The translations under genes were made by a program, and so were the position numbers. The notes below the pieces were generated by a model, which was not told the DNA's origin, searched no databases, and was given only the letters and a program-made list of their open reading frames with translations. Below are positions 1,055 to 28,325 of a DNA stretch of 38,251 bases, piece after piece (the first letter of the stretch is position 1; the number at the start of each line of letters is the position of its first letter). This DNA is from Dielma fastidiosa. Lineage in GTDB: Bacteria; Bacillota_I; Bacilli_A; Erysipelotrichales; Erysipelotrichaceae. Location of the stretch: positions 1 to 38,251 of the forward strand of contig NZ_HE578929.1 in NCBI RefSeq assembly GCF_000313565.1. The letters are read 5' to 3'.

Positions 1055-1744
1055 ATGGCTGGATATGGCATTGATAATATTAAAGAATGGTTTAAGAATC
1101 ATGTAGCGGAGTTACGAGTTTTAGATGATGATGCACAGGTGCTGATATGGAAACAACCCGGAACAAGAATGTGTGAGATAGACTTTGTATTTTATAAAAA
1201 TATGGTCTATATTACAGGCGACATGAGGGATGCAGTATTTAATACAACTTGGCGCACATCGTGGGACTGTAATAATGGGTGGCGTATCGGTCTTTATTAT
1301 TTTGCTGAGAAATTATCGTGTGCCAAATATGGGAAATATACATGGGATTCGAAAGAGGCTGTCAAATATCTAGCGGGAGAATATAGACAAGAATTTGGCG
1401 GTAATGACGATGAGTACATAGAAACAATTTCGTACATCAAAGATCAACACATAGAAGATGTGTATGATTTCGAAATGATTGAAATACCACATAAAGAAAA
1501 ATTTGACGATGATAGTGTATTATTGCAGATGTGTTTAGCGATAAATTACGCAAATGAATCTTCATCATCGGAAGAATTTGCACAAAACATTAACTTATGT
1601 TCAGATTTTGAGGATTTTAACGATTTTTGGGAATGGGGTTATTCTTGTGGCAGGGTGCTGAATCCGGATATTGAGGTTTATTTGATAGCTTTGCAAATGG
1701 CATATGATCAATTATCTAATAAAGAGGTGAACGTAAATGACTGA
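1055..1744 (+). CDS. Hypothetical phage protein, 229 aa
   Basis: An acidic, aromatic-rich soluble protein with no motif that assigns a function. Its N-terminal pattern (GIDNIKEWFKNH, then WKQPGTRMCEIDFVFYKNMVYITGDMRDAVF with the two halves joined) resembles hypothetical proteins often seen in Firmicutes phages. ATG at 1055 is preferred over GTG at 1034 because GGAAAGG lies at a better distance. The stop overlaps the start of the next ORF by 8 bp, so the two are probably translationally coupled. There is no signal peptide or membrane segment. Confidence 0.65.
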   Translation: MAGYGIDNIKEWFKNHVAELRVLDDDAQVLIWKQPGTRMCEIDFVFYKNMVYITGDMRDAVFNTTWRTSWDCNNGWRIGLYYFAEKLSCAKYGKYTWDSKEAVKYLAGEYRQEFGGNDDEYIETISYIKDQHIEDVYDFEMIEIPHKEKFDDDSVLLQMCLAINYANESSSSEEFAQNINLCSDFEDFNDFWEWGYSCGRVLNPDIEVYLIALQMAYDQLSNKEVNVND

Positions 1745-2123: not shown

Positions 2124-2134
2124 CTGAGGTGAGC

Positions 2135-2563
2135 ATGAATTATAAAGATGAAAGAAAGTATCTAGAGAATGAGCTAAGGAGCTATCGTTATATTGTTAAT
2201 AAATGTTATGAATATGAAAATGAGATTGCTGAAGCAACTATTCAAAAGTTTGGCACTTCAAGTAAAAATGCGCAGCTCGTTATCTATGAAAATGTAAGTA
2301 ACCCTTATAAAGATAAATGGATAGAATTAGATGATATTATAAATAAAGCATATGATAAATTATTATTTTGGAAACAAAGACGCGAATGGATAGAAGATTG
2401 TCTTTCACGCCTCGATGATCCTTTTGAAATCAAGATTATTCATTTAAGATACATCTATGAAAGTAGCAAAACGGACATACAACTAGCAAAAGCGATAGGT
2501 TGCCACAGAAACACATTGAGAAACACAACAAATAGAGCATTTAAAAAAATGCTAAAAAAATAA
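2135..2563 (+). CDS. ArpU-like late-gene transcription regulator
   Basis: A 142-aa protein with a helical N-terminal half and a C-terminal helix-turn-helix like sigma-70 region 4. The segment LDDPFEIKIIHLRYIYESSK is followed by TDIQLAKAIGCHRNTLRNTT and a basic tail, as in phage ArpU/RinA-like regulators. Members of this group sit just before the packaging genes and activate late transcription. ATG 2135 follows GAGGTGAGC; the frame is open further upstream, but no earlier start has an SD. The gene is directly followed by a perfect palindrome and a TATAAT box, the expected target of such an activator. Confident on the class, inferred for the exact target. Confidence 0.78.
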   Translation: MNYKDERKYLENELRSYRYIVNKCYEYENEIAEATIQKFGTSSKNAQLVIYENVSNPYKDKWIELDDIINKAYDKLLFWKQRREWIEDCLSRLDDPFEIKIIHLRYIYESSKTDIQLAKAIGCHRNTLRNTTNRAFKKMLKK

Positions 2564-2567
2564 AAGT

Positions 2568-2600
2568 TTGTGCAATGCACAAGCAAAAATGGTGTATAAT
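2568..2600 (+). promoter_or_regulatory. Candidate activator-dependent late promoter
   Basis: A perfect palindrome, TTGTGCA-A-TGCACAA (2568-2582), precedes TATAAT (2595-2600). The bases at the expected -35 position are not consensus and lie inside the palindrome, which is centred near -32 of the predicted start (~2607). That layout fits an activator site that replaces the -35 box, with the ArpU-like protein as the likely activator. Confidence 0.55.
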
Positions 2601-2606
2601 CGTAAT

Positions 2607-2781
2607 CGAAGGAAGAGCAATGCTCAACATCCTCGTTGCTTATTATATAAGCACGTATAAAAATAGTGATAGTAACTCTACGGAGACTATTGCGTAAAGG
2701 CATCTATATCAACTATACGTTATTTGTATGGTTTGATATGGATGCTTTTATTTTAGGTAGCTAAACAGCTGCCTTTTTTTT
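2607..2781 (+). ncRNA. Candidate structured phage RNA between late promoter and packaging genes
   Basis: From the predicted start to an intrinsic terminator there is no ORF, only successive hairpins: GAGCA-A-TGCTC (2615-2625, with outer AGGA/TCCT); TGCTTAT-TAT-ATAAGCA (2637-2653); a stem at 2668-2691 capped by C(TACG)G, a UNCG-class tetraloop; a long stem of about 23 bp (2696-2718 with 2726-2749, one bulge); and the terminator hairpin (2756-2773). The unit is bounded by its own promoter and T-tract. It could be a free small RNA, a leader that controls readthrough into the packaging genes, or a cis-acting antitermination element. No known RNA family is recognised. Confidence 0.5.
2756..2781 (+). 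terminator. Intrinsic terminator upstream of packaging genes
   Basis: GGTAGCT (2756-2762), loop AAAC, AGCTGCC (2767-2773), then eight Ts. It lies between the late promoter and the first packaging gene, so late transcription must either pass it by antitermination or start again downstream. Confidence 0.75.
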
Positions 2782-2812
2782 GTTATCCGGCAACCCCGGC
2801 GGAGGAAAAGAC

Positions 2813-3025
2813 ATGAGTGATAAAACATTTGTTGAAGAGACAAGGGCAAGGACAGGTGAGCCAGTGTCAATGATATGGAGTACCGTCAGTATGATTTATA
2901 ACATGTCGGAAAAGACTTGCTATGCCATTGATTTTATTTACAAAGAGATTTTGTCTATGCTAGATGATCGTGTGTGCTGGACATCAAGACAAGCTGCCAA
3001 GCTGCTGTTATCGGAACATGACTAA
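2813..3025 (+). CDS. Hypothetical packaging-region protein, 70 aa
   Basis: A small protein starting at ATG 2813 behind GGAGGAAAAG. The C-terminal part (DDRVCWTSRQAAKLLLSEHD) resembles a helical DNA-binding element, but no family is recognised. It overlaps the next ORF by 8 bp. A GC-rich patch (2787-2804) sits immediately upstream in otherwise AT-rich DNA. First gene of the HNH-TerS-TerL block. Confidence 0.6.
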   Translation: MSDKTFVEETRARTGEPVSMIWSTVSMIYNMSEKTCYAIDFIYKEILSMLDDRVCWTSRQAAKLLLSEHD

Positions 3026-3206
3026 AGATGTGCCTTGTTATGAGTGCAGTGATAGGCACATTGGCTGTCATGGATCATGTAAGAGATACGCTAAGTACAA
3101 TGTGAACCGCAAAAAGATATTGAGACAGCAGCAGAATCAAACGGCGGCAGATCATGAGGTATCAAGCCATTGGTGCTATGACAGCAGGTGCAGGAGGATA
3201 GCGTAA
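3018..3206 (+). CDS. Small Cys-rich (zinc-knuckle-like) phage protein
   Basis: 62 aa with CYECSDRHIGCHGSCKRY near the N-terminus, giving a C-x2-C-x6-C-x3-C pattern (Cys and His at 7-21). Small proteins with C-x2-C...GCH-x2-C-x2-Y are common immediately upstream of HNH endonuclease and terminase genes in Firmicutes phages. Metal binding is likely, the role unknown. ATG 3018 overlaps the preceding gene, and the stop TAA shares a base with the ATG of the HNH gene. The C-terminal half is Gln/Lys/Arg-rich. Confidence 0.65.
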   Translation: MTKDVPCYECSDRHIGCHGSCKRYAKYNVNRKKILRQQQNQTAADHEVSSHWCYDSRCRRIA

Positions 3207-3529
3207 TGGCTCAACCATTTGCTAAACGTTTTTATAAAAGCAAACAATGGCAGCATGTTAGAGATTATGTATTTAAACGTGACAATGGCCTATGCCAAGA
3301 TTGCTTACAAGCTGGCAGGATCACACCGGGCTTAGAAGTACATCACTTAGTAACATTGACGGCAGTAAACATTGATGATGCAGATATTAGTTTGAACCCA
3401 GACAGATTAGTGACGTTGTGCTATGACTGTCACAAGAAGCGTCATCAAGGGAATAGAAGTGCATTAACCGAAGGATATAGGTTTGATGCAGATGGAAACA
3501 TCATTGAGGATACTCCCCCCATTAAATAA
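3206..3529 (+). CDS. HNH endonuclease
   Basis: 107 aa. Zinc ligands are C30-x2-C33 and C72-x2-C75. The HNH core is H46/H47 (LEVHHLVTL), N64 (SLNPDRL) and H76/H80 (CHKKRH), matching phage HNH proteins encoded beside terminase. In HK97-like cos phages such proteins assist terminase cleavage of the packaging site. ATG 3206 has AGGAGG eight bases upstream. The 3' end (C6 at 3515-3520) can pair with the following G-rich sequence around 3529-3541 as a hairpin with a mismatch. Function confident by motif and position. Confidence 0.9.
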   Translation: MAQPFAKRFYKSKQWQHVRDYVFKRDNGLCQDCLQAGRITPGLEVHHLVTLTAVNIDDADISLNPDRLVTLCYDCHKKRHQGNRSALTEGYRFDADGNIIEDTPPIK

Positions 3530-3544
3530 GGGTGGGGTGTCTTT

Positions 3545-3658
3545 ATGGAGACCGTAGAGAGGAGGTCAGAAAAACCGCGTGGAAAATTTACACGAGGGGG
3601 GGTTAAACCCAAAAGAAGCGCAAGAAAGCGCAATAAGAAAAAAGAAAAACGCTTATAA
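3545..3658 (+). CDS. 37-aa basic ORF overlapping TerS start, possible true TerS N-terminus
   Basis: ATG 3545 opens METVERRSEKPRGKFTRGG, then runs over seven Gs (3596-3602) into VKPKRSARKRNKKKEKRL and TAA. With six Gs, or a +1 shift on the G-run, the frame would continue as ...RGKFTRGGLNPKEAQ into TerS. The ORF covers the strong AGGAGG (3560-3565), which is 13 bases from the TerS GTG, longer than usual. It could be the real TerS start, an overlapping small gene, or chance. Confidence 0.3.
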   Translation: METVERRSEKPRGKFTRGGVKPKRSARKRNKKKEKRL

Positions 3659-3956
3659 GAAGATTTTCAAGGACGTTGATGAAAGTAAAAAAAAGTTTGT
3701 TGATTCTATGATTTCACAGCTTGCTTATATCGAAATATCACTTGAAGAATTGCAGAACCAAACGATCAATGATGGTTATATTGAATTGTTTGAACAAGGA
3801 AACCAAAGTTTTTTAAGAGAACATCCGGCAGCTAAGAGTTACAATTCTTACATAAAGAGTTATACAACGATCATTAAAACTTTGATTGATATCGTACCGG
3901 CAGCAAAGCAAAGTGATGAGCTTCAGAAATTTTTAGATAAAAAGAAGAAATTATGA
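3579..3956 (+). CDS. terS: Terminase small subunit (P27-like)
   Basis: 125 aa with an N-terminal basic segment, a helical body, and the motif REHPAAKSYNSYIKSYTTII typical of P27-type small terminase proteins. Its place between HNH and TerL supports the call. It recognises the packaging site in phage DNA and recruits TerL. GTG 3579 is the only start in this frame, and its SD is 13 bases away; see the overlapping ORF at 3545. A G7 run at 3596-3602 lies in codons 6-8. TerL begins with a 4-bp overlap. Confidence 0.75.
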   Translation: MENLHEGGLNPKEAQESAIRKKKNAYKKIFKDVDESKKKFVDSMISQLAYIEISLEELQNQTINDGYIELFEQGNQSFLREHPAAKSYNSYIKSYTTIIKTLIDIVPAAKQSDELQKFLDKKKKL

Positions 3957-5623
3957 CCTATTTAGAAGAATATGCAAGAGCGGTATTAAGCGGTAAAATC
4001 AACGCTTGCCATAGAATCAAGCAGGCTTACGCACATTTACTTGACAAACTAGAACATCCTGAAAAATATAAACCGTGGGTATTTGATGAAGATAGGGCAA
4101 ATGAACCTATTGAATTTATCGAAACTTTTTGTAAACAGGCACAAGGTCGAAACAGAGGGAAACCGTTAAAATTAGAACTATTTCAAAAAGCCAAACATCA
4201 AGCAGTGTTTGGCTTTATACATGAAAAAACCGGTGAACGGCAGTATCAAGAGGTGCTTGACATCCGAGGGCGTAAGAACGGAAAAACAACTGAACTTGCT
4301 GCTGATGCTACTTACATGATGTTAGGTGATGGTGAAGGTTCACCGGAAGTTTATTTCATAGCCACTAAATTAGATCAAGCAAAAAAAGGATTTTCTGAAG
4401 CCCATAAAATGATCATGCAATCGGATATGCTGAAAAAGTATCTGCGTAAACGACAGTCCGATATTTGGTGTGATATGAATTTCGGCACGATGCAAGCACT
4501 TGCCAGCAATAGCAATTCATTAGATGGTCTTAACGGACATTTTGTGATTATCGATGAGTTAGCAGCAATACAGAAACGTGATCTTTATGACTTGATGAAA
4601 CAATCTATGTCGTCACGTTTTCAACCGTTATTAAACTGTATTACTACTAACGGATTTGTGCGTAATTCAATTTATGATGCACAGTATGTTTATGCCATAA
4701 AGGTACTTGATTCATATGACATAGGTAAGTGTATCGATGAACGTTTCCTTCCGCTAATCTATGAATTAGATGATCGTGATGAGTGGGACAAAGAAGATTG
4801 CTGGGTTAAAGCAAATCCCGGACTTGGCACGATCAAGTCCTTTGATAAGTTGAGAGGATATGTTGAAAAGGCGAAAAAAGATCCAGCATTTAAAGCCACA
4901 GTTATGGTAAAAGACTTTAACATGACCGAAACATCTGCAAGTGCTTGGCTGACTTATAAGACACTGAACAATACAACTAAATTTGAACTGGATAAGATGT
5001 CGTTTAGATATTGTATTGGTGGTTTTGACGGATCAGATACCACCGACTTAACCAATGCGAAAGCATTGTGTATGCGACCGAATGACAATCATTTATACTA
5101 TGCATCCATGTATTGGCTGCCTGAAGAAACGCTGATCCAACGAAGCATTGAAGACAGCGCGCCTTATGAGCTGTGGGAACGTCAAGGCTATTTGCGCGTA
5201 TCAAAAGGGAACAAAATCAATTTTTATGATGTTCTCGAGTGGTACAAAGAACTTAGGGATGTGCATGATATTTATGTTTTATATATTGGGTTTGATCCGT
5301 GGCATGTTGATGAATCGTTGCTTGAAGCGTTTAAGAATGAATTTGGTAAAGAAGCAATGATACCGGTGCGTCAAGGAACAAAAACTTTAAGCAGTCCGAT
5401 GAAATCATTTAAAGCTGATCTCGATGCAAAGCTGATTGTTTATAACGATAACCCAATTGACAAGATGTGCCTTGCTAACACAGAGATCAAGACAGACATT
5501 AACAACAACATTCAGCCAGTGAAGGGATTAGATGTGCGAAAGCGCATTGATGGTACGATCGGATTTTTAAATTCTTACGTTGTCTTTAATGACAAAAGAG
5601 ACGAATACTTAACCTTGATTTAA
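3953..5623 (+). CDS. terL: Terminase large subunit
   Basis: 556 aa packaging ATPase and nuclease. The ATPase domain carries the P-loop RGRKNGKTT (about residues 104-112) and Walker B HFVIIDEL (about 197-204). The C-terminal nuclease starts with GGFDGSDTTD (about 357-366), and later acidic residues (YIGFDPWHVDE) complete the site. Length fits the HK97-like terminase group. The start overlaps the TerS stop as ATGA, indicating coupled translation. TerL pumps DNA into the prohead through the portal and cuts it. High confidence. Confidence 0.95.
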   Translation: MTYLEEYARAVLSGKINACHRIKQAYAHLLDKLEHPEKYKPWVFDEDRANEPIEFIETFCKQAQGRNRGKPLKLELFQKAKHQAVFGFIHEKTGERQYQEVLDIRGRKNGKTTELAADATYMMLGDGEGSPEVYFIATKLDQAKKGFSEAHKMIMQSDMLKKYLRKRQSDIWCDMNFGTMQALASNSNSLDGLNGHFVIIDELAAIQKRDLYDLMKQSMSSRFQPLLNCITTNGFVRNSIYDAQYVYAIKVLDSYDIGKCIDERFLPLIYELDDRDEWDKEDCWVKANPGLGTIKSFDKLRGYVEKAKKDPAFKATVMVKDFNMTETSASAWLTYKTLNNTTKFELDKMSFRYCIGGFDGSDTTDLTNAKALCMRPNDNHLYYASMYWLPEETLIQRSIEDSAPYELWERQGYLRVSKGNKINFYDVLEWYKELRDVHDIYVLYIGFDPWHVDESLLEAFKNEFGKEAMIPVRQGTKTLSSPMKSFKADLDAKLIVYNDNPIDKMCLANTEIKTDINNNIQPVKGLDVRKRIDGTIGFLNSYVVFNDKRDEYLTLI

Positions 5624-22126: not shown

Positions 22127-22160
22127 CGCTCACTCTCAATTAAGAGGGTGAGCGCTTTTT
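22127..22160. terminator. Terminator closing the late operon
   Basis: CGCTCACTCTC (22127-22137) pairs with GAGGGTGAGCG (22144-22154), one G-T pair, followed by TTTTT. It also ends the minus-strand regulator gene, whose stop lies at 22159-22161. Confidence 0.88.
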
Positions 22161-22389
22161 ATTTGTTTTCAGGCGGTATGTATTCAAGTAAATCTGTAAT
22201 ATCACAGTCAAGCGCAGTGCATAAACGACCCAAAATATCAAAATCAACTCTTACAATCTTGTTATCGCAATAATGATTTAGTTGCGTTCTTTGCAACTCA
22301 GCTTTAAATGATAATTTTGATTTACTGATACCTTTTTCTTTCATCACTTCGTTTAGTCGCATTCTTACTTTGCCGAATTCTTCTGACAT
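22159..22389 (-). CDS. XRE-family regulator (HTH_26 type)
   Basis: 76 aa single-domain helix-turn-helix: NEVMKEKGISKSKLSFKAEL, then QRTQLNHYCDNKIVRVDFDI, LGRLCTALDCDITDLLEYI. The LL-E-Y ending is typical of this short XRE class. ATG 22389 follows AGGAGATGAAAAT on the minus strand. It faces away from a second regulator at 22511 that is clearly its paralogue, with a promoter region and inverted repeat between. Probably a lysogenic-state or accessory regulator rather than the main CI. Confidence 0.82.
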   Translation of the reverse strand: MSEEFGKVRMRLNEVMKEKGISKSKLSFKAELQRTQLNHYCDNKIVRVDFDILGRLCTALDCDITDLLEYIPPENK

Positions 22390-22402
22390 ATTTTCATCTC
22401 CT

Positions 22403-22432
22403 ATACAATATATGTGCAAATCTGTATTGTAT
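22403..22432. promoter_or_regulatory. Operator candidate between divergent regulators
   Basis: A perfect 8-bp inverted repeat, ATACAATA (22403-22410) and TATTGTAT (22425-22432), lies in the 121-bp divergent promoter region. The half-site recurs partly as TGTATAGTA near 22476-22484, so both regulators may read related sites. Confidence 0.5.
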
Positions 22433-22510
22433 ATTCATTTTAAGATTGATATGATATAAATATAAGCTGTAAATTTGTATAGTAAATTCATATCTAAAGA
22501 GGTAATTATC

Positions 22511-22729
22511 ATGAGAAAAGGTAAAATAAAGATACATTTAGAAGAATTAATTAAGAATTCAGGGTTAAGTAAGACTAAATTCAGCTACCGGGCAGATATG
22601 CAAATGTCACAGGTTAATGCTTACTGTAATAACACTATTAAACGCTTAGATGTTGATGTATTGGCAAGGATATGTGATACATTGGGCTGCAGCATAGCGG
22701 ATCTGTTGGAATATACAAGAATAAAATAA
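22511..22729 (+). CDS. XRE-family regulator, paralogue of the divergent gene
   Basis: 72 aa, with LEELIKNSGLSKTKFSYRAD, MQMSQVNAYCNNTIKRLDVD and LARICDTLGCSIADLLEYT. It aligns without gaps to the minus-strand protein at roughly 40-45 percent identity by eye. ATG 22511 is preceded by AAAGAGGTAATTATC; the frame is open upstream but without a better SD. The pair could form a small bistable switch. Confidence 0.8.
   Translation: MRKGKIKIHLEELIKNSGLSKTKFSYRADMQMSQVNAYCNNTIKRLDVDVLARICDTLGCSIADLLEYTRIK

Positions 22730-26732: not shown

Positions 26733-28325
<1,593 letters not shown>

Follow-up and report, generated by a model that had tools for sequence, protein, structure and literature searches.

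AbiF, a HEPN protein, belongs to a toxin lineage that is reported as ancestral to Cas13, its antitoxin RNA being the forerunner of the Cas13 crRNA. The AbiF RNA of C. difficile (RCd22) acts in trans, neutralising its toxin through direct binding, and depends on its stem structure for this effect (PMC12373285), and a PbAbiF-ncRNA structure is available as PDB 8vz6 (PMC12737573). Two phage systems pursue the same mimic strategy against ToxIN and CRISPR, namely pseudo-ToxI of phage phiTE, an RNA that resembles the antitoxin of an abortive-infection RNase while the toxin gene is absent (PMC3475682), and the solitary-repeat RNA anti-CRISPRs, or Racrs (PMC10651486). Cyanophage S-CREM1 carries an sRNA with an abiF motif, for which the available text of a review describes the motif only, leaves its role unconfirmed and proposes no anti-AbiF function (PMC12197685). 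Our search of the freely readable literature, beyond which others may have priority, retrieved no proposal of phage anti-AbiF RNAs.

Here, we describe an AbiF-type hairpin in a prophage of Dielma fastidiosa, located in a window of 38,251 nt (the whole stretch of DNA analysed; contig NZ_HE578929.1, positions 1 to 38,251, assembly GCF_000313565.1). Like the S-CREM1 sRNA it is phage-borne, and as for pseudo-ToxI the toxin gene is missing; it differs from the latter in its presumed target family, AbiF instead of ToxN, in having one hairpin where pseudo-ToxI has tandem repeats, and in that its function is predicted by comparison. The window RNA shares with the Racrs the organisation as a solitary defence-RNA unit in phage genomes, with the copy in phage Sfi19 lying close to an acr gene, but would mimic the AbiF antitoxin and not a CRISPR repeat.

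Results

Folding of the 245-nt region 2568-2812 yielded −84.6 kcal/mol, compared with −52.6 ± 4.3 in dinucleotide shuffles (z −7.5; 0 of 200 shuffles equally good). This fold lies far beyond chance, and a real structured RNA is present, flanked by a late-type promoter and a tandem pair of terminators (Table 1). All elements listed in a first-pass annotation of the sequence (palindrome, TATAAT, hairpins, a UNCG-capped stem, a long stem and a terminator) were recovered in the sequence or the fold. The UNCG-capped stem is the hairpin 2666-2694, which also appears in the full-length fold and is built of a 7-bp stem, a 3-nt 5' bulge, a 3-bp stem and a UACG loop at 2679-2682. The strong terminator noted there is indeed present but not single, as it is part of a tandem pair that also occurs in a second prophage. 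Likewise, the description of the segment as free of ORFs holds except for 2620-2697, where a candidate 25-codon ORF (MLNILVAYYISTYKNSDSNSTETIA), preceded by AGGAAG at 2610, overlaps both leader and motif, so that its translation would compete with folding of the hairpin. The stop of this ORF coincides with the 3' limit of the AbiF-type hairpin.

Table 1 Features of the RNA locus and its flanking late genes in the window.
Feature	Position	Strand	Basis and remarks
Late transcriptional regulator (putative)	2132-2563	+	PHROG 36 (E 1e-14), PHROG 248 (E 4.9e-7); ATG assumed at 2135
Perfect inverted repeat TTGTGCAATGCACAA (TTGTGCA-A-TGCACAA)	2568-2582		Presumed late-regulator operator, from sequence
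−10 element TATAAT of the late promoter	2595-2600	+	Sequence; presumed start near 2607
5' leader with two hairpins (~2614-2626, ~2638-2653)	2607-2665	+	Fold, sequence
AbiF-type antitoxin RNA motif	2666-2694	+	Covariance model R1, fold, covariation
Long hairpin (~24-bp stem, ~2697-2749) and TTTTATTTT	2697-2754	+	Fold; first of the tandem terminators
Second intrinsic terminator, strong	2755-2781	+	Conserved in the sibling prophage
First late-operon genes, for a small protein, HNH, probable TerS and TerL	2813-5623	+	Pfam and PHROG searches

The gene directly upstream encodes a putative late regulator of PHROG 36/248 type, without a match in a Pfam search and comparable to the RinA/LtrC/ArpU-type late regulators of Gram-positive phages. 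As in these systems, the regulator gene directly precedes the promoter region and the terminase genes, whereas operator and activation are presumed from the sequence in the window. The regulator is the presumed activator of the promoter at 2568-2600; no −35 box of simple consensus was found upstream of the TATAAT element, and the inverted repeat would occupy the −35 position, which fits an activator-dependent late promoter. The RNA is followed by genes for HNH, a putative TerS (PHROG 1066), TerL and portal. Searches for relatives of the late regulator gave none beyond the same prophage. An Rfam scan of the window returned only a tRNA at the gathering threshold, a sub-threshold SpF19 match being judged a chance hit, and when phages and plasmids were searched with the region by BLAST, no useful match emerged. 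Elsewhere in the window, downstream of the lysis gene, two similar small helix-turn-helix proteins are encoded divergently at 22159-22419 and 22475-22729.

When related genomes were searched with the segment by BLAST, short copies emerged, 84-91% identical and spanning only ~2661-2698, which in two genomes lie directly upstream of a gene whose Abi_2 product is 321-323 aa long (E 3e-34 and 3e-35). This protein matches PDB 8vz6 (E 9e-9), and the AbiF loci show the order promoter, hairpin, terminator hairpin, abiF, often with the hairpin in two copies. A pattern scan covering genomes of 84,980 species, plus Streptococcus phages, added AbiF-adjacent copies in Companilactobacillus, in more Erysipelotrichaceae and in two phages, the satellite Javan230 and IPP38. 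Stoquefichus, Erysipelotrichaceae, Companilactobacillus and Streptococcus phages all have the hairpin immediately 5' of an Abi_2/AbiF gene. Across 316 genomes of the order Erysipelotrichales, the pattern gave 12 sites versus 0 for a reversed control pattern, and the stems of the copies differ by compensatory changes (GCGAUAG/CUAUUGC, GCGAUGG/CCAUUGC, GCGUCAG/CUGAUGC). GC-rich pattern matches (L117-L119, L121-L123, L150, L152-L157, L162-L169 and similar) were discarded because their composition and conserved flanks mark them as coding look-alikes; some matches of this kind score 36-39 bits (L163, L201, L216, L221), so that a bit score by itself is no proof once a scan has selected for the motif.

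We derived a covariance model, R1, exclusively from nine copies adjacent to abiF, leaving out that of the window. Applied to the window, it retrieved 2666-2694 at 45.4 bits (E 5.8e-11) as the sole match up to E 10, and the hairpin retains all 13 invariant R1 positions. A terminator hairpin (2697-2749 plus TTTTATTTT) follows directly 3' of the motif, a layout also seen at the AbiF loci L116, L108 and L130. No abiF gene lies directly downstream of the window motif, where the late operon is found instead, and the unit comprises only one motif plus an unusual 60-nt leader with two further hairpins. Judged by its sequence and predicted structure, the window hairpin would be classed as an AbiF antitoxin RNA of the R1 subtype.

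The R1 motif, with its 5' bulge and UACG tetraloop, is distinct from the Rfam abiF RNA RF03085, in which the internal loop (CAAAUC) is on the 3' side and the apical loop is larger. The RF03085 model matched neither the window nor the R1-type AbiF loci, and scored 37.6 bits on C. difficile phage phiC2 as a positive control. AbiFr, RCd22 (phi027) and RF03085 resemble the window RNA in the succession of outer stem, asymmetric internal loop, 3-bp inner stem and terminator; unlike at the AbiFr/RCd22 loci, the window has no abiF gene and its RNA lies behind a late promoter. DNA of lactococcal phage sk1 reportedly protects phage 712 from AbiF (thus the title of Rince et al. 2000); phage sk1 (L235) contains neither R1 nor an RF03085 match. 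Two tRNA-like genes are located at 27505-27717 of that phage.

The R1 label clustered on a phylogeny of 24 Abi_2 proteins, requiring 2 changes versus a shuffled mean of 7.5 (0 of 500 as low). The host genome encodes a single Abi_2 (L093 5708-6688, G000:C5) on a long branch outside the R1 cluster, upstream of which neither an R1 RNA nor a recognisable antitoxin RNA was found. That the window RNA serves this protein was considered unlikely for both reasons. R1-type AbiF was found neither in the host genome nor in the sampled genomes of its family.

The second, related prophage of the genome (L002/L094) has a TerL 93% identical to that of the window. Alignment of the two revealed a common promoter GTATAATCGTAATCGA, tandem terminators and a CCGGCAACCCCGG block preceding the first late gene, whereas the interior enclosed by these elements is swapped. 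The two prophages also have different operator-like palindromes, TTGTGCAATGCACAA in the window versus the near-palindrome TTGTAGGTAACCACAA at the same spot. Promoter and terminators are therefore the standing architecture and the RNA is an exchangeable insert. The sibling carries a different hairpin, AAGGAAAAACCUACAAGGUUUGAUCCUUGC (L002 ~1535-1645, minus strand, G000:C2), in place of the AbiF-type hairpin. It is built much like R1, with an outer stem, an A-rich bulge, a UAC loop and a UUGC end, and has 12 nt (GGAAAAACCUAC) in common with the RNA upstream of abiF in satellite phages Javan537 and Javan72. The R1 model gave no match on this hairpin, which may be another AbiF-RNA subtype.

Copies of the motif also recur in phages as solitary defence-RNA units, as in the window, without a cognate effector gene. 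A solitary hairpin is located downstream of the endolysin gene in the S. thermophilus phages O1205, Sfi19, Sfi21, Sfi11, SFi18 and CHPC919 (12 records), where it forms a free-standing unit that has a TATAAT-like box of its own and, immediately 3' of the hairpin, a T-run; this unit is missing from six related phages sharing the same region. In Sfi19, the following genes are orf111 and then AcrIIA6, so that an anti-defence gene lies next but one, while none was recognised beside the window copy. Several small units, each combining a TATAATAT-like box with a terminator-like hairpin, occur between the endolysin and the next genes of S. thermophilus phages (L227 2660-2900; same region of L228-L231 and L234), including a second recurring unit in addition to the AbiF-type RNA (e.g. 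CAATCCCCCCACATCC..GGACAGATACG..TGGGGG). These small units could be an array of counter-defence RNAs.

Within the order, solitary copies score 37-48 bits with R1. Three prophages of the order carry them on the integrase side (L124, L125, L127/L120), and in L213, L174 and L160 solitary copies adjoin a tRNA-like sequence and lie upstream of terminase genes, with a PHROG 248 regulator further upstream in L213. Brief inspection added copies on the viral contigs L151/L184, L171, L180, L192, L200 and L226; several of the viral-contig copies come from a scan that selects for the motif. A chromosomal solitary motif (L112 5420-5447, G078:C123), with a TATAAT-like box and a terminator, is situated between a MarR-type regulator and the cysteine synthase region. 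None of 80 viral TerL relatives contained an R1 motif except in the same prophage, which argues that the RNA is no standing part of the late operon of this lineage.

Covariation was assessed in 14 distinct solitary sequences, including that of the window and one chromosomal, non-phage sequence (L112). All cells were paired (100%), and 13 two-sided changes were counted versus a shuffled mean of 3.6; the covariation score was 0.43 versus at most 0.10 in slid controls, of which 35-51% of cells were paired. The covariation check in homologues that the first-pass annotation had proposed thus did reveal compensatory changes, and its suggestion of a phage small RNA, presumably transcribed from the late promoter, is supported. 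By tblastn, no abiF remnant was detected near solitary copies at E<0.1. A decayed abiF gene with nine stops (L148 1323-1500, G084:C1:262253) is accompanied by a degraded R1 motif (23.7 bits). On the same contig, ~38 kb away, an intact solitary copy is located near an integrase. As the decayed gene has a decayed motif while the solitary copies are intact, a kept function is favoured, although a single control is no proof.

Discussion

Based on sequence comparison and analogy to the described systems, the element is a solitary phage-borne AbiF-type antitoxin RNA and probably a mimic that neutralises AbiF abortive-infection toxins. We infer its transcription, AbiF binding, neutralisation and timing as follows. 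The late regulator would switch on the promoter after induction or late in infection, whereupon many polymerases would halt at the tandem terminators to give an RNA of ~145-175 nt, and read-through would allow transcription of the packaging genes. Folded like the cognate antitoxin, the hairpin would bind AbiF dimers, and AbiF made or freed during infection would be kept inactive, so that the lytic cycle could be completed. Since the C. difficile AbiF RNA acts in trans, a solitary phage copy could inhibit AbiF. Late expression, however, is later than usual for anti-defence functions and counts against the mimic reading, as do the single motif, the unusual leader and the candidate ORF over the motif, as well as the lack of R1-type AbiF in the host and sampled family genomes and of the motif in close viral TerL relatives.

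An alternative is that the RNA is the remnant of a complete AbiF toxin-antitoxin locus, left without present function after loss of abiF. Streptococcus phages and satellites commonly carry AbiF loci, often adjoining the integrase, and three solitary copies hold such integrase-side positions; but tblastn gave no abiF traces at E<0.1, the window has no room for a lost abiF gene, the S. thermophilus phages carry a free-standing unit, and solitary copies retain full pairing and compensatory changes whereas the motif of the decayed abiF has degraded. We therefore regard a remnant as unlikely. Somewhat less probable still is a self-protection or superinfection device, by which a lysogen or phage would tolerate AbiF of co-resident prophages, satellites or plasmids, as opposed to chromosomal defence. 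Many R1-type and related AbiFs are borne by phages and satellites, and the integrase-side copies may, judging from their position, be expressed in lysogens, but the copy in the window follows a late-type promoter outside the lysogeny region, in a genome in which no R1-type AbiF was found.

Two further readings had already been raised in the first-pass annotation and found no support here. A regulated late leader, i.e. an attenuator or put-like antitermination controlling read-through into the packaging operon, would agree with the promoter and tandem terminators preceding the late operon in both prophages, and termination could be coupled to translation of the candidate ORF. The siblings nevertheless have different inserts, swapped in between the promoter and the terminators, and the conserved part is an AbiF-antitoxin hairpin found elsewhere upstream of abiF; a leader, which we hold to be improbable, would account for the terminators and not for the hairpin, and could coexist with the mimic. 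The position before the terminase genes, likewise in L213, L174 and L160, would suit a packaging-associated RNA or DNA element (a pac or cos signal, or pRNA-like). However, the small terminases of these three belong to PHROGs 51, 1889 and 83 and the putative one of the window to PHROG 1066, TerL relatives do not have the motif, and the same hairpin occurs upstream of abiF or near endolysin, integrase and tRNA genes. No Rfam pRNA match was found in the window, and unlike the phi29 gene set, the window has a TerL ATPase/nuclease within an HNH operon. A role in packaging is accordingly very improbable.

Returning to the mimic, we see an even chance that solitary AbiF antitoxin RNAs represent a widespread, unrecognised class of RNA counter-defence in Bacillota phages, including the classical S. 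thermophilus phages, with recurrent slots (the late-promoter/terminase junction; near tRNA and acr genes) in which sibling phages would exchange RNA subtypes. If true, such an antitoxin-imitating phage RNA would be to AbiF what pseudo-ToxI is to ToxIN and the RNA anti-CRISPRs are to CRISPR. The mimic reading is testable in the laboratory dairy phages Sfi19, Sfi21 and O1205, and could help explain the AbiF insensitivity of some phages. A further implication is that counter-defence RNAs can occur among the unannotated intergenic hairpins of well-studied phages.
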